Shown here one piece after another: positions 7,449-36,439 of a DNA stretch of 36,439 nt. The notes below the pieces were generated by a model. It did not search any database. It was not told the DNA's origin and worked only from the letters and a program-made list of their open reading frames with translations. Numbering within the stretch: position 1 is the stretch's first letter; the number at the start of each line of letters is the position of its first letter. The stretch lies in the NCBI GenBank assembly GCA_024276465.1, contig JAJRXD010000169.1, positions 1 to 36,439 on the forward strand, read 5' to 3'. This DNA is from Deltaproteobacteria bacterium (GTDB lineage: Bacteria; Desulfobacterota; WTBG01; CAIYCZ01; CAIRTM01). The translations under genes and the position numbers were made by a program.

Positions 7449-9233
7449 TTACATTTTGCGCAGCCTGATTGCCCTGGGGGTTATTTCCACCAGCTCATCA
7501 TCATTGATATAGGCTGTGCAGTCTTCAAGGCTCATCTCAAGTGGAGGTGTCAAAACAATGCTATCGTCTGATCCGGCAGCGCGGATGTTGGTAAGTTTTT
7601 TTCCCTTAGCCGGGTTAACCACGAGATCTCCTTCGCGGCAGTGCTCCCCGATAATTTGACCATTATACACTTTAACACCAGGGCCGCAGAACAACTTTCC
7701 GCGCTCCTGCAGATTATGCAGGGCATAGCCAACCGTGGTGCTTGGGTCCTTTACCACCAGGGCTCCGTTTCTACGGTTTGTAACATTGCCGGCATGGGGC
7801 CCATAGTGGGAAAAAATATAGTTCATGATGCCCATGCCTTTTGTAAGGGTCATGAATTCGGATCGAAAACCTAACAGGCAGCGCGTGGGGATAACATACT
7901 CTATGCGCGCCATCCCCCCTCCCTGATGCAGCTGGTTGATTTTACCTTTCCGTGCACCAAGGTTTTCAATAACAACCCCCATATATTTCTCATCAACGTC
8001 AATTGTCAGCTCCTCATAGGGCTCCAGCAGCTTGTCATTCTCTTGTTTCATGATTACCTGGGGGCGGGTCACCTGAAACTCATAGCCTTCACGCCGCATA
8101 TGCTCTATGAGAATGGAAATATGCAGTTCCCCCCGGCCTGAGACTTTAAAACCGGTTCGGTTGGACAGCTCCTCAACCACCAGCGCAACATCGGAAAGGG
8201 TTTCACGGCGCAGCCGGTTATCAAGGTGCCTGGAGGTAACATAGGTTCCATCCTGGCCTGCAAAGGGCGAGTCATTGGGGATAAAGTTCATGGAGATTGT
8301 GGGCGGATCGATTTCCGTTGGCGGCAGCGGACGAGGATTATCCGGATCAGTTAATGTCACACCCACCGTAACTTCATCTATGCCAGCCACTGCAACTATT
8401 TCACCAGTCCCGGCAAAGCTGGCAGCAATTTTTGAATTGCCTTCAAAGCGGTAGAGCTTGGTTATACGAGCTGGCAGAAGAGAGCCATCCCGCTGTGCAA
8501 CCACGATTTCATTGTTGATGCTCATGGTTCCCGATGTGATTTTTCCAATTCCCATGCGTCCCAGATAGGGAGAATAGTCAATGGAACTGACAAGCAGCTG
8601 CAGGGGTGCTTCAGGATCACCTGACGGAGCCGGAGTATTGGTAATAATTTTTTCGCAAAGCGGCTGCATGGATTCTGGCGTACTGTTCAGATCATCCACT
8701 GCATAACCGTCCCGAGCTGAAGCAAAGAGGACCGGAAAATCCAGCAGGTCTTCCGGGGCATTGAGCTTTACGAACAGGTCAAAGACCTGATCCACCGCCC
8801 AGTCTGAACGCGCTGCAGGCTTGTCTATTTTATTAATTACAACAATAACAGGAAGAGAAAGAGCCAGAGCTTTTTTCAGAACAAAATGGGTTTGCGGCAT
8901 TGGTCCTTCCTGGGCATCAACCAGGAGCAGTACGCCATCAGCCATCTTCAGAACCCTCTCCACCTGTCCGCCAAAATCAGCATGCCCCGGTGTATCGATA
9001 ATATTGATCAGAAAATCCTGGAACATAAAGGAGCCGTTTTTGGATGCAATGGTAATACCACGCTCGCGCTCAATGTCCATTGAGTCCATAAGCCGTTCTG
9101 CCATGAGCTGATTGTCACGAAACATACCGCTTTGTCTGAAAAGCTGGTCCACAAGTGTTGTCTTCCCATGGTCAACATGGGCAATAATAGCAATATTACG
9201 AATTTTATTCTGCTTTACAGGTTTTATATTCAT
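7449..9233 (-). CDS. typA: Ribosome-associated GTPase BipA/TypA
   Basis: Translational GTPase of the EF-G superfamily that assists 50S subunit assembly and stress or low-temperature growth. The N-terminal G domain shows G1 AHVDHGKTTL, G3 DTPGHADFGG and G4 NKIDKP. Domains II, III and V follow, then the BipA-specific C-terminal domain, with VIPTRCLLGFRSEFMT, a hallmark of the family. At 594 residues it is close to the typical 600-615. ATG at 9233 lacks a clear Shine-Dalgarno sequence. The amidohydrolase gene follows 18 bp later. Assignment is firm. Confidence 0.98.
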   Translation of the reverse strand: MNIKPVKQNKIRNIAIIAHVDHGKTTLVDQLFRQSGMFRDNQLMAERLMDSMDIERERGITIASKNGSFMFQDFLINIIDTPGHADFGGQVERVLKMADGVLLLVDAQEGPMPQTHFVLKKALALSLPVIVVINKIDKPAARSDWAVDQVFDLFVKLNAPEDLLDFPVLFASARDGYAVDDLNSTPESMQPLCEKIITNTPAPSGDPEAPLQLLVSSIDYSPYLGRMGIGKITSGTMSINNEIVVAQRDGSLLPARITKLYRFEGNSKIAASFAGTGEIVAVAGIDEVTVGVTLTDPDNPRPLPPTEIDPPTISMNFIPNDSPFAGQDGTYVTSRHLDNRLRRETLSDVALVVEELSNRTGFKVSGRGELHISILIEHMRREGYEFQVTRPQVIMKQENDKLLEPYEELTIDVDEKYMGVVIENLGARKGKINQLHQGGGMARIEYVIPTRCLLGFRSEFMTLTKGMGIMNYIFSHYGPHAGNVTNRRNGALVVKDPSTTVGYALHNLQERGKLFCGPGVKVYNGQIIGEHCREGDLVVNPAKGKKLTNIRAAGSDDSIVLTPPLEMSLEDCTAYINDDELVEITPRAIRLRKM

Positions 9234-9689: not shown

Positions 9690-11072
9690 TTAATCACTGG
9701 AGTCAAACTTTATACCATATTCTGTAATTTTACTCAACAGCGCAGGGTAGCTGATCTCAAGAAGTTTTGATGCCCTGCTTTTGTTGCCGTGAACTTTTTT
9801 CAGAGCCTTTCTGATCAGTTTTCCTTCCATAATGCGGGTCAGCTTTTTGATTGAATAATCATTTTCCGGAATATGCCATATATCATCGCTGTGATTTGCT
9901 GTGATTGATTCAGGAATATCATTAACATCAAGGGTTGATTCCCCTGTCAGGATCATTGATCGCTCTATGATATTTTCAAGCTCTCTTATGTTTCCCGGCC
10001 AGTTGTAGGAGGATAAAATTTTACGAGCCCCGGAAGCTATTTTTTTAACAGCAAGCCCGTGAATTTTATTATACTTTTTAATAAAATGTTCAATCAAAAG
10101 GGGGATATCCTGCTTTCGCTCCCGAAGAGGGGGGATATGAATGGGCAGCACATTCAGCCTGTAATACAGATCCTCACGAAACAAACCCTTTTCAACTTCA
10201 CGCAGGAGGTCTTTAGCTGTTGCAGTGATTACCCTGACATCAACAAGGACAGTATGCTCATCACCTATCTTTCTTATCTCACCTTCCTGCAGAGCCCTTA
10301 AAAGTTTGACCTGCAGGTTTGCAGGGATATCCCCTATTTCGTCAAGAAAAAGGGTGCCTTCATCAGCCTCTTCAAAAAAACCTTTTCTGTCCTGGGTGGC
10401 TCCGGTGAATGAGCCCCTTTTGTGGCCGAAAAGCTCGCTTTCAAGCAGTGTTTCAGGAATGGCGCCACAGTTTATGGCCAAAAAAGTTTCAGATCTTCTC
10501 TGGCTGCTGTAGTGAATAGCCCTTGCTACAAGCTCCTTGCCTGTACCACTTTCTCCGGTGATAAGAACAGAGCTTTTAACGTTCGACACTTTTTTTATAA
10601 GATCCAAGACACTCAAAATTTCGGGGCTTTCACCGATGAGGTTTTTAAAGCTGTGTTTCTCCTCAACCTCTTTACGCAGAGTAATATTTTCTTTTTTGAG
10701 CTGCTCACGCTCCTCAGCTTTCTTTAAAGCAAGAAAAATTTCAGCCGGCTTAAAGGGCTTGGATATGTAATCGTATGCCCCAAGCTTCATGGTCTCAATA
10801 GCAAGGTCGATGGTGCCATAGGCAGACATGGTTATAATGGTGGAGGAGATTTTTCTCCCTGAGACGTTTTTTAAAAATTCGATGCCGTCCATTCGCGGCA
10901 TGCGAAGGTCACAGAGGATGGTATCAAAAGCCTGCTGTTCCAAAACAGCCAGAGCATCCTCTCCATCAGCAGCAAGGTGCACATCATAGCCTTCTTTGGC
11001 AAGCATGGCTTTCAGAACATGCCGCATATTTTCTTCATCGTCTATTATGAGAATTTTTCTTCTTTTTTGCAT
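9690..11072 (-). CDS. Sigma-54-dependent response regulator (NtrC/PilR family)
   Basis: Transcriptional activator of sigma-54 promoters. The receiver domain (about 5-120) contains the DD pair, phospho-acceptor Asp55 in CDLRMPRMDG and Lys105 in SKPF. The AAA+ domain (about 145-375) has Walker A GESGTGKE, the sigma-54 contact loop as GSFTGA (Ser for the usual Ala) and Walker B TLFLDEIGD. The C-terminal Fis-type helix-turn-helix is KSRASKLLEISYPALLSKI. The frame opens at a TTG (11105), but ATG at 11072 gives the receiver its normal N-terminus and has ACAGG upstream. It follows the sensor kinase gene in the same direction after a 256-bp gap that contains repeats. It is the likely partner of that kinase, perhaps controlling type IV pilin. 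Confidence 0.95.
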   Translation of the reverse strand: MQKRRKILIIDDEENMRHVLKAMLAKEGYDVHLAADGEDALAVLEQQAFDTILCDLRMPRMDGIEFLKNVSGRKISSTIITMSAYGTIDLAIETMKLGAYDYISKPFKPAEIFLALKKAEEREQLKKENITLRKEVEEKHSFKNLIGESPEILSVLDLIKKVSNVKSSVLITGESGTGKELVARAIHYSSQRRSETFLAINCGAIPETLLESELFGHKRGSFTGATQDRKGFFEEADEGTLFLDEIGDIPANLQVKLLRALQEGEIRKIGDEHTVLVDVRVITATAKDLLREVEKGLFREDLYYRLNVLPIHIPPLRERKQDIPLLIEHFIKKYNKIHGLAVKKIASGARKILSSYNWPGNIRELENIIERSMILTGESTLDVNDIPESITANHSDDIWHIPENDYSIKKLTRIMEGKLIRKALKKVHGNKSRASKLLEISYPALLSKITEYGIKFDSSD

Positions 11073-13624: not shown

Positions 13625-15811
13625 TCAGTTTTCAATTTTTTTATGCATTTTGCCGATATTTTTTTTCAGCCAGACTGCGCTGGCAAACAGGCCTGTTAAC
13701 AGGCCTGCAAAAAACCCGAATTTCAGGTAATTAACAAAATGTGTTTTTGTTATGGATGAAAAAGAATTTTCATATCCCTGGTACAGCAGCAATAAGCTTG
13801 TAAAAGAAAACATTGTGATTGCTGCAGTAATAAAATAAAAACCCACGGTTTTCAAAGAACATTCAAGGGCAAATACAATATTTTTTATGATTTCAAGCCG
13901 GCTTTGGCTGGAAGCAATTTTTTCAGACTCCCTTGACAGCCTTTCTAACATTATTTTGGTTTCTTTAAGGCTCGGGGGGGGGACTGTTTCAGAAACTTGC
14001 TTTGCCTCCCGAAGCTGTTTTTCAAAATTATCGATAATCCTGAAATTTCTTTTTGATAACATGTTTTTGTAAGGGAACCGGGCAAGATATTTTGAATTAT
14101 TTGCAAGCCTGCTGGCAAAGCCGGATATTTTTTTCTTCAAATAACCCTGGCGGTAATTAACAGCCCGTTTGATCAAAAGATTAATATTTACCTCAAAGCC
14201 AGGGATATCCACAAGTCCTGACAAACTTTCCTTTTCGAAGGAATCAGATGCTTCACCAAACAGTTTAAGAGCTGTACTAAAATCCATGTCATCTCTGCTG
14301 AACCACCCTTCATGCTTTTCAATAATATTTTTTATGTTGTTTAAGCTTGTTTCAGCCCTGGTGCGTATGTTCAACATCTCACTGTTAAGAAGGGGGATAA
14401 TTTCGCCCTGCTCCCTGGATAATTCAGGATCCAGGGAGATCATAAGGCAATAGCGTGGTGACTGGGACATTAGATGTCTGAAAATTTCAACAGCCGGTTT
14501 GATTTTCCCTGATTTTGCAAGGATAACAGCAAGATAATACCTGGCTTCATTCCAGTCATGAAAAAGGGCTATGGCCTTTTCAATTTCCTTTTGTGCATAA
14601 GACAGAGAGCCTGACACTTCATACAGCCTGGCTATTAACAGATATATGTGACGTTTCATGAAGTTGCTTATGGAAAAAGACAGAGCACTGTTGAAATAAG
14701 AAAGGGCCTGTTCCGGGTTTGATTTTTCCATAGCTAATATCCCCATCGCTACCTGTGGCCTGTAGTTATCTACCTGCTCCTTAACGGCTTTTTCAAACCA
14801 TGCCTTTGCTTCGTCAAGCTTTGAAACCCTGAGACAATCTTCTCCCATCAGGAGCGATCCTGTTTTGTCAGGAAGTTCAACTTTGTCAACTCTGTTCTCC
14901 AGAAAGAGCTGGTGTGTTGACCTGAGCTGAAAAATTTCAGTGGTTTCATAAAAAGAGAAAAAGCAAAGGGAATAGGGGTCTTCTCTGTCCTCTTTAAAAA
15001 GGATTTCAAAACGCTCTTCATCTGACCCTCTTTTTAACGGTTTCACAATATCATGAAATCTTTCCTGGAAAAGCCTGCGTATTTCAATTACAGGGAGGTA
15101 CCCTAACCTTTCCAAAAAGTTTGTTGGTTTCCGGAGAAGCTTTGAAGGACAACCGCTCATTGGGTGTCTGGTTGTTCCGCAGTAAAAGCAGGGCGTTTCG
15201 TCCGGGGTTTTGCTTTCATACGGAACAATGGGAGTAAACAGATGCTTTTGCTTTTCAGGTTTATCCCAGTCCACAAGAAATACTTTAATATTTGCTGCTT
15301 GTTCTGTTTTTTCCTTAATGTCACAGGCAACAAAATGAATATCAGGTGAATCTTTTGTTTCTTCGTAAAATGATTCGGTAATAATTATTTGACGGGCATC
15401 ACAGCACGTAACAAGTTTGCCAGCGATATTTACCACATCTCCAAAAACATCTTTTTCTTCAATTATGGCATCCCCATAATTCATGGAAATTTTTATTAGA
15501 AGATGATCACTGGGACTATGTTCAGCATTATGCTTTTTAAGCCTTTTCTGAATGGCAACAGAAGCCCAGAGAGCTTCCCCTGGTGCCAGAAAATAGGCCA
15601 TGATTGAATCACCTATTGTTTTAACAACAACCCCCCTGTAAGCTTGTACAATAGGAAAAAGCATGTCATTGAGCTTTTGTATCATGATCCGGCCAGCCAG
15701 ATTCCCATGGGTTTTATAAAAGGCAGTTGATCCTTTTATGTCAGTAAAAAGAATAGCAACCCTTTTGTTTGTGCCCGACTGGCCATGGCTGTTTGCTGAA
15801 TTTTTTGTCAT
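13625..15811 (-). CDS. Class III adenylate/guanylate cyclase-like protein with zinc knuckle, TPRs and C-terminal membrane helices
   Basis: A cyclase homology domain (about 17-185) starts ILFTDIKGSTAFY, with metal-binding Asp24 and Asp68 (KTIGDSIMAY). The transition-state motif reads VNIAGK instead of VNxAxR: Asn128 is present but the usual Arg is Lys132. Next comes a retroviral-type zinc knuckle, CFYCGTTRHPMSGC, exactly C-x2-C-x4-H-x4-C (Cys208, Cys211, His216, Cys221). A TPR region (about 325-450) precedes a helical segment and two membrane helices near residues 660-715. The frame opens at TTG 15826; I chose ATG 15811, but neither has a good Shine-Dalgarno sequence. It heads the prepilin peptidase-kinase operon, suggesting cAMP or cGMP-linked, or purely structural, control. 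Activity is uncertain. Confidence 0.88.
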   Translation of the reverse strand: MTKNSANSHGQSGTNKRVAILFTDIKGSTAFYKTHGNLAGRIMIQKLNDMLFPIVQAYRGVVVKTIGDSIMAYFLAPGEALWASVAIQKRLKKHNAEHSPSDHLLIKISMNYGDAIIEEKDVFGDVVNIAGKLVTCCDARQIIITESFYEETKDSPDIHFVACDIKEKTEQAANIKVFLVDWDKPEKQKHLFTPIVPYESKTPDETPCFYCGTTRHPMSGCPSKLLRKPTNFLERLGYLPVIEIRRLFQERFHDIVKPLKRGSDEERFEILFKEDREDPYSLCFFSFYETTEIFQLRSTHQLFLENRVDKVELPDKTGSLLMGEDCLRVSKLDEAKAWFEKAVKEQVDNYRPQVAMGILAMEKSNPEQALSYFNSALSFSISNFMKRHIYLLIARLYEVSGSLSYAQKEIEKAIALFHDWNEARYYLAVILAKSGKIKPAVEIFRHLMSQSPRYCLMISLDPELSREQGEIIPLLNSEMLNIRTRAETSLNNIKNIIEKHEGWFSRDDMDFSTALKLFGEASDSFEKESLSGLVDIPGFEVNINLLIKRAVNYRQGYLKKKISGFASRLANNSKYLARFPYKNMLSKRNFRIIDNFEKQLREAKQVSETVPPPSLKETKIMLERLSRESEKIASSQSRLEIIKNIVFALECSLKTVGFYFITAAITMFSFTSLLLLYQGYENSFSSITKTHFVNYLKFGFFAGLLTGLFASAVWLKKNIGKMHKKIEN

Positions 15812-17432: not shown

Positions 17433-19016
17433 ATGGAAAAAAAAGCAAAACTGCCTGTTATACATCTTGAGTTGAATGCAGGTGTTTTCAAAATTTCGAC
17501 TCAGGAAGCAATTTATGAAATTTCTGTTAATCCGGAAAGCAGTCTTACCAGGATTGTTGATCAAATAGTTGAAAAGGAGATTGTGGCTGAACCTGCTGCT
17601 TCAGCACAAAAGCCTTCATTCGAAGAGGTCTCGCCTTCTGCGGGGAACACAATGAAATCAGCTGCGGCAGATTCTTTTTATAAAGAAGTTTCAGAGGAGA
17701 TGTTTAAGGAAATAGGTAAAGTGGCCCGCACATTATCCCTTTCTATTAAAGACATTCCTGATGGGGCTGTGGAAAAGGTTGATTTTGAAAAAGCAGGGAT
17801 TGATCTGGAAAGCGCTAAGGGCTCTCTTGAAGATATTGTTAAAATCACTGAAAAAGCTACAATGGATATTATGGACATGCACGACAGTATCAGTGGAAAC
17901 TGTGATACCATAAAAAAGAATCTCTCTGACATACGGAAATTGCATTTTATTGAAAAACATGTTGAAGGGGATTCCGGAGACAGTGCCCTGATTTCCTGTG
18001 AGTTTCTGGAAGATATAATCAAGAAAGAAGAGGGTCTGAAAAATCTCATAAAAGAACTGCCTGAAAGCCATAAAGAACCTTCTTCAACCGGGCATGAACC
18101 AGAACCGGCAACAGAAAAGGTGAGGGTATACAAATTTGATCTGGATGTTGTTTTGCAGACCCTTTATGAGCTTTGCACTAATGAATCCGTGAAAAAAAAC
18201 CACATAACACCAATGAGAGCTGACAAAGACTCTGAGTTTGATATTGACGGGGTTCTCAAAGCATTTTCAGACATGGCTCCAAACATTGCCACAGAAGAAA
18301 ACTTCTTTAATTTCCCTGTGACGGATATCCTCAAGATACTTTTCAGGTTTTCAAAGAGTGAAAAAAGCAAACAGGTCTTAAAGAAAATGAATCAGACAGC
18401 AGACAGTATTTTTCTTGACCAGGTTCTGCCTATAGAGGGCAGTGTGGAAGAGAAGGAAGTTACTGTTGCAAATGAAACCAAAACAGCACCCCCTTCCGAT
18501 GAATCAGATTCAGGCCCAAGGCAGAAGGCTCTAAAATTAATTGATGAAAACATAGGCGATTTAAAAAAAGAAACTGAACGATTCAGGGCTGCCGTGCATG
18601 AAGGTGAATCAACAGATCCCGAGGGGATTTCAATGATAAAAACAGAAGATCGGGAGATATTAGTTTCTGCGCTTGAGTCAACTGAGAATGTCATCCAAAA
18701 AATCATTTCCAACCTTACCTCCATATTGGAGTCACTGACATTTCAGGACCTTTCCGGCCAGCGTATTAAAAAAATTGTTGCTGTGCTTACAGATATTCAG
18801 ATCCAGATGCTGAGTACACTTGTGTCGTTTGGGACTAAACTTAAGATAAAGAAGAACGAAAAGGATGTTACACCAGGGGAAGCAGAGGCAAAAGCAAGCC
18901 GGGAAGTAGATAGAATGATGGAGATGGTTGCTGATGAGGCTGCTAAAGGAAAAGACACACCAGGCCCGCTGGATCAAAACGCTGTTAATGATCTTCTTGC
19001 AGAACTGGGGTTTTAG
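17433..19016 (+). CDS. CheZ-like phosphatase with a large central insertion
   Basis: Both ends match CheZ, the CheY-phosphate phosphatase. The active-site helix reads FQDLSGQRIKKIV (Asp439, Gln443, equivalent to the catalytic Asp143/Gln147 of E. coli CheZ). The extreme C-terminus VNDLLAELGF matches the peptide with which CheZ grips CheY. Residues about 85-165 (IGKVARTLSLSIKDIP, then ITEKATMDIMDMHDSI) resemble the N-terminal half of the CheZ four-helix bundle. Between them are some 270 extra residues, including a compact segment at about 232-335. The total is 527 residues against about 214 in E. coli. Probably cytoplasmic, it lies directly behind the PilZ gene and would act on a CheY-like receiver. 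Confidence 0.85.
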   Translation: MEKKAKLPVIHLELNAGVFKISTQEAIYEISVNPESSLTRIVDQIVEKEIVAEPAASAQKPSFEEVSPSAGNTMKSAAADSFYKEVSEEMFKEIGKVARTLSLSIKDIPDGAVEKVDFEKAGIDLESAKGSLEDIVKITEKATMDIMDMHDSISGNCDTIKKNLSDIRKLHFIEKHVEGDSGDSALISCEFLEDIIKKEEGLKNLIKELPESHKEPSSTGHEPEPATEKVRVYKFDLDVVLQTLYELCTNESVKKNHITPMRADKDSEFDIDGVLKAFSDMAPNIATEENFFNFPVTDILKILFRFSKSEKSKQVLKKMNQTADSIFLDQVLPIEGSVEEKEVTVANETKTAPPSDESDSGPRQKALKLIDENIGDLKKETERFRAAVHEGESTDPEGISMIKTEDREILVSALESTENVIQKIISNLTSILESLTFQDLSGQRIKKIVAVLTDIQIQMLSTLVSFGTKLKIKKNEKDVTPGEAEAKASREVDRMMEMVADEAAKGKDTPGPLDQNAVNDLLAELGF

Positions 19017-19055: not shown

Positions 19056-19073
19056 ATCCCGATCTGTCGGGAT
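19056..19073. repeat. Short ATCCCGA..TCGGGAT palindrome
   Basis: Perfect 7-bp stem with TCTG loop, 40 bp after the CheZ-like stop codon. Same family as the palindromes inside the tRNA-Asn pseudo-copies and at 9658. Confidence 0.5.
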
Positions 19074-35615: not shown

Positions 35616-35648
35616 TGAAAAATAAAAAGGCCAGTTGATAAACCAGCC
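35616..35648 (-). terminator. Intrinsic terminator after the tRNA-half array
   Basis: Minus-strand stem GGCTGGTT-TATC-AACTGGCC (eight pairs including two wobbles) followed by TTTTTATTTTT. An identical sequence occurs at 35972-36004, before the GIY-YIG gene. It would end transcription from tRNA-Asn. Confidence 0.7.
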
Positions 35649-35713
35649 TCTATTTGAAAATTTGGCTCCCCAGCGCGGACTCGAATTCCGAAATCCTTCG
35701 GAATTAACAGCCT
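35616..35713. repeat. 98-bp direct repeat, left copy
   Basis: Identical to 35972-36069 apart from two substitutions. It contains one terminator and one tRNA-Asn half with its palindrome. The two copies flank the GIY-YIG gene. Confidence 0.85.
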
Positions 35714-35970
35714 TTATCTGCAATTAGCCACTCAATGTAATTCCTGCTCTTTTTGGCCTTGATCTCTTTTTCACGCTTTACTGCATCTGCCCGACTGCTG
35801 AATTCTTCATGATATATTAAAATCCACGGGCCTTTAAATCGCTTGGTTGTCTTACTACCTTGATATTCAGGGTCATTATGCTCAGACAACCTTCTATTGA
35901 TATTACTTGTCTGCCCTACATAATATCTGCCTGTTGTTACGCTCTCAAGAATGTACACAAAATACTTCAT
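35704..35970 (-). CDS. GIY-YIG endonuclease-like protein in the tRNA array
   Basis: 88-residue stand-alone GIY-YIG nuclease domain. MKYFVYILESVTTGRYYVGQTSN is the GIY-YIG start (Tyr-Val-Tyr and Tyr-Tyr-Val-Gly), followed by RRLSEHN and the basic, catalytic-type segment DAVKREKEIKAKKSRNYIEWL. Its last residues KGC and the TAA stop are supplied by the tRNA-Asn half: AAAGGCTGTTAA, with the anticodon loop giving the stop. It begins immediately after a terminator stem and has no Shine-Dalgarno, so expression may be weak or depend on readthrough. It is flanked by 98-bp direct repeats containing tRNA ends, as if inserted or amplified there. Such proteins are often homing or mobile-DNA nucleases; activity here is inferred. 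Confidence 0.85.
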   Translation of the reverse strand: MKYFVYILESVTTGRYYVGQTSNINRRLSEHNDPEYQGSKTTKRFKGPWILIYHEEFSSRADAVKREKEIKAKKSRNYIEWLIADKGC

Positions 35971-35971
35971 C

Positions 35972-36004
35972 TGAAAAATAAAAAGGCCAGTTGATAAACC
36001 AGCC
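35972..36004 (-). terminator. Intrinsic terminator between tRNA array and GIY-YIG gene
   Basis: Same GGCTGGTT/AACTGGCC stem and T-tract as at 35616-35648. It would block most read-through from the tRNA-Asn promoter into the GIY-YIG gene. Confidence 0.7.
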
Positions 36005-36069
36005 TCTGTTTGAAAATTTGGCTCCCCAGCGCGGACTCGAATTCCGAAATCCTTCGGAATTAGCAGCCT
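35972..36069. repeat. 98-bp direct repeat, right copy
   Basis: Second copy of 35616-35713, differing at two positions. Its terminator half lies directly upstream of the GIY-YIG start codon. Confidence 0.85.
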
Positions 36070-36254
36070 GTTTGAAAAATTGGCTCCCCAGCGCGGACTC
36101 GAATTCCGAAATCCTTCGGAATTAACAGCCTGTTTGAAAAATTGGCTCCCCAGCGCGGACTCGAATTCCGAAATCCTTCGGAATTAACAGCCTATTTGAA
36201 AAATTGGCTCCCCAGCGCGGACTCGAATTCCGAAATCCTTCGGAATTAACAGCC
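36019..36254 (-). repeat. Tandem array of tRNA-Asn 3' halves, 62-bp period
   Basis: Units at 36019-36068, 36081-36130, 36143-36192 and 36205-36254 repeat every 62 bp. A fifth related unit lies at 35663-35712, beyond the GIY-YIG gene. On the minus strand each unit reads GGCTGTTAA (anticodon loop), then a palindrome TTCCGAAGGATTTCGGAA, then the intact T-loop, acceptor and CCA end of tRNA-Asn. The array is in register with the true tRNA gene (next start 36267). One unit has GGCTGCTAA. Confidence 0.85.
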
Positions 36255-36266
36255 TATTTGAAAAAT

Positions 36267-36342
<76 letters not shown>

Positions 36343-36376
36343 GCAATTATTTGTCTGTCTTTTTCCCTCCCCTTTC

Positions 36377-36426
36377 AGGTGGTTAATCCCGATCCATCGG
36401 GACTCTACCGACTGAGCTACTGGGGA
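36377..36426 (-). pseudogene. Partial second tRNA-Asn copy with a palindrome
   Basis: Minus strand: the 5' half up to the D arm (TCCCCAGTAGCTC... to GTAGAG) is intact. The 5' anticodon stem is then replaced by a TCCCGATGGATCGGGA palindrome, followed by TTAACCACCT. The 13 bp beyond it (gcaattatttgtc) repeats the 5' flank of the real tRNA, showing an 84-bp tandem duplication. It cannot fold as a tRNA. Confidence 0.75.
36387..36402. repeat. TCCCGATCCATCGGGA palindrome
   Basis: Perfect 6-bp inverted repeat inside the partial tRNA-Asn copy. It resembles the TTCCGAAATCCTTCGGAA palindrome in the five tRNA-half units and the hairpin at 19056. Confidence 0.65.
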
Positions 36427-36439
36427 GCAATTATTTGTC

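Follow-up and report, generated by a model that had tools for sequence, protein, structure and literature searches.

At the end of the window (the whole stretch of DNA analysed here, 36,439 nucleotides, which is the complete contig C145), an intact tRNA-Asn gene is accompanied by tandem copies of its own halves and by the gene of a small GIY-YIG nuclease, and this arrangement is best explained by a tRNA-anchored, homing-type GIY-YIG nuclease cassette. We give this explanation, in which the tRNA gene is presumed to be cut by the nuclease, an even chance of being correct. The 5' halves of the tRNA lie upstream and the 3' halves downstream, most of them with a short palindrome that replaces the tRNA sequence at the break, and both the units and the cassettes are amplified in tandem.

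Results

Organization of the tRNA-Asn locus

On the minus strand, four 62-bp units come directly after the tRNA-Asn(GTT) gene (36342-36267), in exact register. Next are a terminator-like hairpin, the gene of the 88-aa GIY-YIG protein, a fifth unit and the terminator once more. The features are listed below.

36356-36439, minus strand: 5'-half unit, consisting of the tRNA-Asn 5' half, the palindrome TCCCGATGGATCGGGA (36387-36402) and then TTAACCACCTG
36267-36342, minus strand: intact tRNA-Asn, anticodon GTT (ARAGORN; Rfam RF00005, 64 bits; own-genome DNA search)
36193-36254, minus strand: 3'-half unit 1, with the anticodon loop GGCTGTTAA, palindrome (36228-36245), T-loop, acceptor and CCA
36131-36192, minus strand: 3'-half unit 2 (palindrome 36166-36183)
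36069-36130, minus strand: 3'-half unit 3 (palindrome 36104-36121)
36007-36068, minus strand: 3'-half unit 4 (palindrome 36042-36059)
35982-36007, minus strand: hairpin resembling an intrinsic terminator, 5' of the GIY-YIG gene (sequence recurs at 35626-35651)
35704-35970, minus strand: GIY-YIG nuclease gene, 88 aa (Pfam PF01541, 65 bits)
35651-35712, minus strand: 3'-half unit 5, which closes the GIY-YIG cassette (palindrome 35686-35703)
35626-35651, minus strand: terminator-like hairpin, second copy

The tandem repeat detected by TRF (36006-36289, period 62, 4.6 copies, 98% matches) and the coordinates confirm what the preliminary description had stated, namely that four units share the register of the tRNA-Asn and that a fifth lies beyond the GIY-YIG gene. 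The anticodon loop GGCTGTTAA (GGCTGCTAA in unit 4, with one base different), the T-loop TTCGAGTCC, the acceptor strand and CCA are kept in every unit, and in every unit the palindrome swap is also found as described earlier: TTCCGAAGGATTTCGGAA stands in place of the 15 nt CCACCTTGTCCGTGG, which make up the anticodon 3' stem, the variable region and the 5' strand of the T-stem, such that the T-arm pairing is lost. TTCCGAAGGATTTCGGAA is an 18-bp palindrome (22 bp when the flanking AA/TT are counted), and no other copy of it is found in the genome, even when two mismatches are allowed. The DNA search of the own draft genome likewise finds no tRNA-Asn-like 3' ends beyond the array. Two identical terminator-like sequences flank the GIY-YIG gene, which therefore belongs to a repeat unit as well. 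The gene ends in codons and a stop (GGC TGT TAA) that are the anticodon-loop sequence of unit 5, and, because the stop is the TAA of this loop, the gene and the tRNA fragment are fused.

Upstream of the tRNA, an 84-bp array of tRNA-Asn 5' halves is present, whose palindrome is unlike that of the 3' units. The unit at 36356-36439 is the last one visible in the window, which has an 83-bp overlap with the end of contig C175, where 3.9 copies of the 84-bp unit are found (10494-10818); the number of 5' units is provisional, since the assembly breaks inside the repeat. A promoter-like site (TTGACA-16-TAAACT) directly precedes the first 84-bp unit in C175, and, as the scan expects 0.8 such sites by chance, it is only suggestive of a real promoter. 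The complete locus would then consist of promoter, 5'-half array, intact tRNA, 3'-half array, terminator, GIY-YIG gene, 3' half and terminator. The large ORF adjoining the array in C175 is, on a reading by eye, presumably MutS2-like.

The RNA of the 84-nt 5'-half unit folds better than its shuffled versions (z -3.4), and in this unit (36356-36439) a downstream GGGGAG is able to pair with the acceptor 5' strand. No unusual stability is seen for the 62-nt unit (z about -0.7 versus shuffles), and this folding does not support the earlier suggestion that the 3' halves are processed into tRNA-like RNAs. Elsewhere in the window, another palindrome of the TCCCGA..TCGGGA family is found at 19057-19072, away from any tRNA, and the tRNA-Ile call of ARAGORN at 8861-8952, which sits within a TypA-like ORF, is probably false.

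Properties of the GIY-YIG protein

The 88-aa protein consists of one GIY-YIG domain (residues 2-76), and a separate DNA-binding region is found neither by Pfam nor in the predicted model (pLDDT 88). Residues Y6, Y17, G19, R27 and E67 are invariant in an alignment of 14 sequences. By sequence as well as by fold, the best solved relatives are the UPF0213 proteins 1ZG2 and 1YWL, with SLX1 next and I-TevI far weaker. For such a bare nuclease domain, it is no less plausible that the shape of the DNA is recognized than that a long sequence site is. The family is under purifying selection, with dN/dS values mostly of 0.05-0.2 among orthologous pairs (much higher values come from saturated, cross-clade pairs), and stop codons occur in some homologue copies (L030, L032). 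When the window protein is used as the query, no close relatives are found in phage records, and the searches of plasmids and viral contigs give one weak Azospirillum match and one partial match, respectively. Three more GIY-YIG domain matches are present in the same genome (L106 in G000:C178, L107 in C19 and L108 in C121).

Relatives and their tRNA isotypes

Close homologues are found in 26 of the 395 genomes of the phylum, the own genome counted, and in 68 of the same 395 genomes when a looser cut-off and an Asp-clade query are used; none of the genomes found in the searches was a second one from the genus of the window. The homologous genes encode 85-90 residues, and those of the Asn clade lie just downstream of tRNA-Asn. 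At the inspected loci, an intact tRNA precedes the gene on the same strand, at a distance of tens to a few hundred bp, and around the gene are copies of this neighbouring tRNA with the break at the anticodon arm. Two tandem 357-bp cassettes, identical over a run of 395 bp, come after the tRNA in the isolate Desulfoferrobacter suflitae DRH4 (L087). Many homologous loci hold one degenerate copy only, and at the gene-bearing loci L027, L028 and L030 there is no detectable tRNA fragment. At L055 (G209), a tRNA 3' remnant is seen 167 bp downstream of the tRNA-Asn start where the nuclease gene is absent, and this is possibly the scar of a lost cassette.

When 89 ORFs are grouped by the neighbouring tRNA, the Asn clade has 23 rows (two of them, L024 and L093, placed by inspection), the Asp clade 13 (two of them without a detected tRNA), the Ala clade 5 and the Lys clade 4. 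There are fewer Ser and Pro labels, and these are less clean, the distant row L177 is likewise at tRNA-Asn, and 35 rows, from many clades, have no tRNA label. The isotype label changes 13 times on the IQ-TREE tree versus 44.9 times when labels are shuffled; the tree is built on 80 columns, and its deep forks are unsure. Each of the main clades keeps to a single tRNA isotype, even across families and phyla of bacteria: the Asn clade takes in one Acidobacteria MAG and another that is placed in Myxococcota, suggesting that the gene has moved horizontally while its target stayed the same. Alternatively, the isotype fidelity could reflect vertical inheritance plus rare transfer. A further clade (L147, L156, L160 and L175, also L148 and L151) lies downstream of tmRNA and has a separate palindrome family, GCCTTCGCT..AGCGAAGGC, which starts at the CCA end.

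Geometry of the breaks

The breaks were mapped by placing the palindrome flanks on the intact tRNA, which is possible for part of the palindromes near the genes; the Ala copies were read by eye only. The recurrent replaced intervals of the Asn copies are 25-34 (with TTAACC as the right flank) and 39/40 to 45/46 or 52, and further recurrent intervals are 50-64 in the T-arm, 11-14 in the D-arm and 30-44 in Asp. The mapped Asn copies usually retain the TTAA of the anticodon loop and lack one strand of the anticodon stem. In the Asp copies, the anticodon arm, and in some of them also the T-arm, is swapped hairpin for hairpin; as a general rule a strict swap of this kind was dropped, since the Asn swaps end at TTAA.

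The fragments show a polarity. All 11 of the 5'-terminal fragments (starting at position 1-2) are upstream and 18 of the 19 3'-terminal ones are downstream (p=2e-7), where array members are taken singly and are not independent (per locus, the numbers are 7 and 14). The tails 3' of the palindrome agree perfectly with the host's own tRNA in 10 of the 11 tested, and uniquely so in four; rather than being displaced host sequence, such tails could be the result of later gene conversion. A single palindrome is common to all units of one array, which implies that capping preceded amplification and that capped copies are not barred from it.

Independent search and distribution of the palindromes

A DNA-only pattern that is independent of the protein, GGCTGTTAATYCCGCN{2,14}GCGGRATT, was scanned against 85,000 genomes. 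It gives 19 stretches, with the nuclease ORF in 10 and an intact tRNA-Asn in 12; several of these are loci from the first search, and two (L091, L097) look like chance matches. Where the gene lies no more than 900 bp from tRNA-Asn, an extra tRNA fragment (an exact match of at least 14 nt) is present at 14 of 19 loci, versus one of 10 relatives without the gene (Fisher p=0.0017), the gene-less relatives not having been picked for fragments.

Palindromes are more frequent near the gene than far from it in the Asn clade (3.3 versus 1.25 per kb, p=5e-7) and in the Asp clade (3.0 versus 1.25 per kb, p=0.002), and the unlabelled clades have no such excess (1.0 near versus 1.5 far per kb). The count of 0 for the Ala clade is due to its short palindromes, which escape a detector of 6-bp arms. 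When compared with its reversed control, TCCCGCN{2,10}GCGGGA has a median log2 ratio of 3.7 in 18 Asn-clade genomes and of 0.0 in 326 genomes without the gene, and this excess survives permutation of the labels within nine families (p=0.0013), seven of the nine families having that direction. Twenty-one genomes are strongly palindrome-rich and have no detected gene. The observed relation of palindromes and gene is one of association, not of causation. In the genome of the window, TCCCGATNNATCGGGA occurs at 94 places versus 3 for the control.

Discussion

A possible mechanism

We infer that the nuclease would break the tRNA gene at the anticodon arm, which is perhaps cut as an extruded hairpin, given that the protein is no more than a catalytic domain and most resembles structure-specific nucleases. 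Recombination repair would then copy a template bearing the cassette, whose homology would be tRNA-derived on both sides of the ORF (a full tRNA on the left, a tRNA 3' half on the right), so that no further shared flank would be needed for the cassette to home into a tRNA-Asn gene. Such repair would restore the essential intact tRNA and leave the displaced host halves in place, palindrome-capped at the junction; the expected product, being intact tRNA, terminator, ORF, palindrome and displaced host 3' half, would match the observed structure. One-sided or unequal repair could, by analogy with SegB, generate segmental amplification, giving the 84-bp 5' units, the 62-bp 3' units and the whole cassettes. 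It is possible that the palindrome at the junction is a captured genomic repeat, or that it is made by hairpin-templated end filling, which would also destroy the cut site. Against homing it can be noted that the supposed target is still present in the intact tRNA, which would somehow have to escape cutting, and that the protein has no separate DNA-binding domain. Of the three possibilities raised in the preliminary description, the best supported one is that a recombinase or nuclease acting on tRNA ends drives the amplification, and the GIY-YIG protein is the likely agent; what does not hold is the position, as the break is mostly in the anticodon arm and not at the tRNA end.

More speculatively, and we hold this to be doubtful, there may exist a class of minimal mobile elements, each a bare GIY-YIG cassette of a few hundred bp, in which isotype-specific clades parasitise tRNA and tmRNA genes across phyla by means of tRNA-derived arms on both sides, anticodon-arm breaks and palindrome-sealed halves, and which may help to spread the short palindromic repeats of many environmental genomes. 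In the open-access journal papers searched, no bacterial description of such a GIY-YIG/tRNA/palindrome arrangement is found. As tRNA genes are essential and nearly invariant, an element using them as target and portable homology could spread between distant bacteria and would need almost no genes of its own. The cassette would provide a testable chromosomal counterpart of phage SegB, suggest what some of the UPF0213-type GIY-YIG proteins that lack an assigned role may do, and link a nuclease to short genomic palindromes of unclear origin.

Comparison with known systems

The closest parallel is SegB of phages T4 and T6, a free-standing GIY-YIG homing endonuclease whose gene also adjoins tRNA genes. 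SegB cuts inside tRNA genes, and in phage T6 its activity, together with recombination genes, is required for the tandem amplification of a tRNA segment (PMC13096335). The reported SegB motif is RAWTSGAAC (PMC13096335), which on our reading is the reverse complement of the T-loop. SegB is phage-encoded and not isotype-biased (PMC13096335), whereas the genes described here are chromosomal, encode 85-90 residues and are faithful to one isotype by clade, and, unlike SegB, the cassette is ringed by palindrome-capped tRNA halves. The catalytic residues, the fidelity to a presumed target site (the tRNA being the putative cut target) and the selection on the gene are shared with homing endonucleases of the SegB type. 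The cassette may be likened to SegB-style nuclease-driven amplification, but it would stand apart from the SegB family in lacking a separate DNA-binding region for a long recognition site.

The small GIY-YIG proteins of UPF0213/COG2827 (PDB 1ZG2, 1YWL), deposited as hypothetical proteins, are of similar size and are the best solved match; in the literature searched, no association of them with tRNA or palindromes is found. The next-best match in sequence and fold is the structure-specific endonuclease SLX1, which cuts branched DNA according to the titles of its PDB entries, and which is much longer and has SLX4 as a partner. We know of no mobility of SLX1. The REP/RAYT system and the Rickettsia palindromic elements (RPE) also consist of short scattered palindromes, with a dedicated nuclease (RAYT) or with insertion into genes (RPE). 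RAYT is a Y1 HuH nuclease, which is a different class from GIY-YIG, and, to our knowledge, arrays of tRNA halves occur neither in REP/RAYT nor in Rickettsia palindromic elements. The rtT repeats of E. coli tyrT are tandem repeats of about 178 bp downstream of a tRNA gene, each with a tRNA 3' end; unlike the cassette, they have no palindrome swap and no nuclease gene. The GC clusters and double-hairpin elements of yeast mitochondria are short mobile palindromes, with some junctions in RNA genes, but they are organellar and have no linked tRNA-anchored nuclease.

Alternative explanations

It is also conceivable that the palindrome itself is the mobile entity, moved as in a REP/RAYT analogue by an SLX1-like GIY-YIG hairpin nuclease, and that the redundant tRNA copies are tolerant landing sites. 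The genome-wide occurrence of the palindromes, enriched in gene-bearing genomes even within families, is in agreement with this, as are the UPF0213 and SLX1 neighbours in fold and sequence and the hairpin-for-hairpin exchange of the Asp anticodon arm and some T-arms. However, the 21 palindrome-rich genomes without a detected gene imply that the enzyme is not required for the presence of palindromes, the Asn swaps cover less than a whole arm and break beside TTAA, and neither the 5'/3' polarity of the tRNA halves nor the isotype fidelity is explained by palindrome movement alone; we regard this account as rather unlikely. Functional tRNA-like RNAs (sponges, or regulatory or protective RNAs), selected as an array with a promoter upstream of the 5' halves, are improbable. 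One promoter-like site ahead of the whole array with terminator-like hairpins after it, the folding of the 84-nt unit and the precedent of the rtT repeats would fit such RNAs, but the 62-nt unit is not markedly more stable than its shuffles, its T-arm pairing is destroyed, and many homologous loci have a single degenerate copy.

Footprints of integrative elements, with the tRNA 3' end as attB and with 3' fragments left by repeated insertion and excision, are slightly less probable still. Although tRNA 3' ends are well known as integration sites and direct repeats of 3' fragments are found on both sides of the GIY-YIG gene, integrase elements would be expected to duplicate only the 3' part, whereas here the 5' halves have been amplified too, with 11 fragments upstream, which largely contradicts this explanation. 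Moreover, the units are merely 62-84 bp, the internal tRNA swap is left unexplained, and no recombinase is found in the Pfam-scanned subset of window ORFs or, by eye, among the listed neighbours in C175. The decoy attachment sites of the preliminary description find weak support, as the scanned window ORFs include no recombinase and 5' halves occur besides the 3' halves. An assembly artefact or random pseudogene decay is barely credible: the array lies at a contig end in a draft genome whose assembly leaves the number of 5' copies provisional, but the same architecture is seen in many independent assemblies, an isolate included. The search of relatives in the phylum reveals a recurrent system, and random decay does not fit because the replacements fall in the same tRNA intervals in many genomes and the palindromes are concentrated near the nuclease gene.

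Other repeats

Further repeats are seen in these genomes. At L072 (G000:C124, locus positions 13806-14002, 15240-15603 and 17910-18308), where no tRNA is found in the stretch, there are tandem units of ~100 bp that hold TCCCGATAAATCGGGA. Within the broken tRNA copies of L018, L042, L044 and L055, other repeats occur (GAGCTTGTCCTGAG-like and CGCCGAAGCTTTA-like), which we take to be widespread ones. TCCCGTTTTATCGGGA is found at several contig ends (G000:C25:38, C68:16, C125:11 and C157:37), suggesting a dispersed repeat that breaks the assembly.
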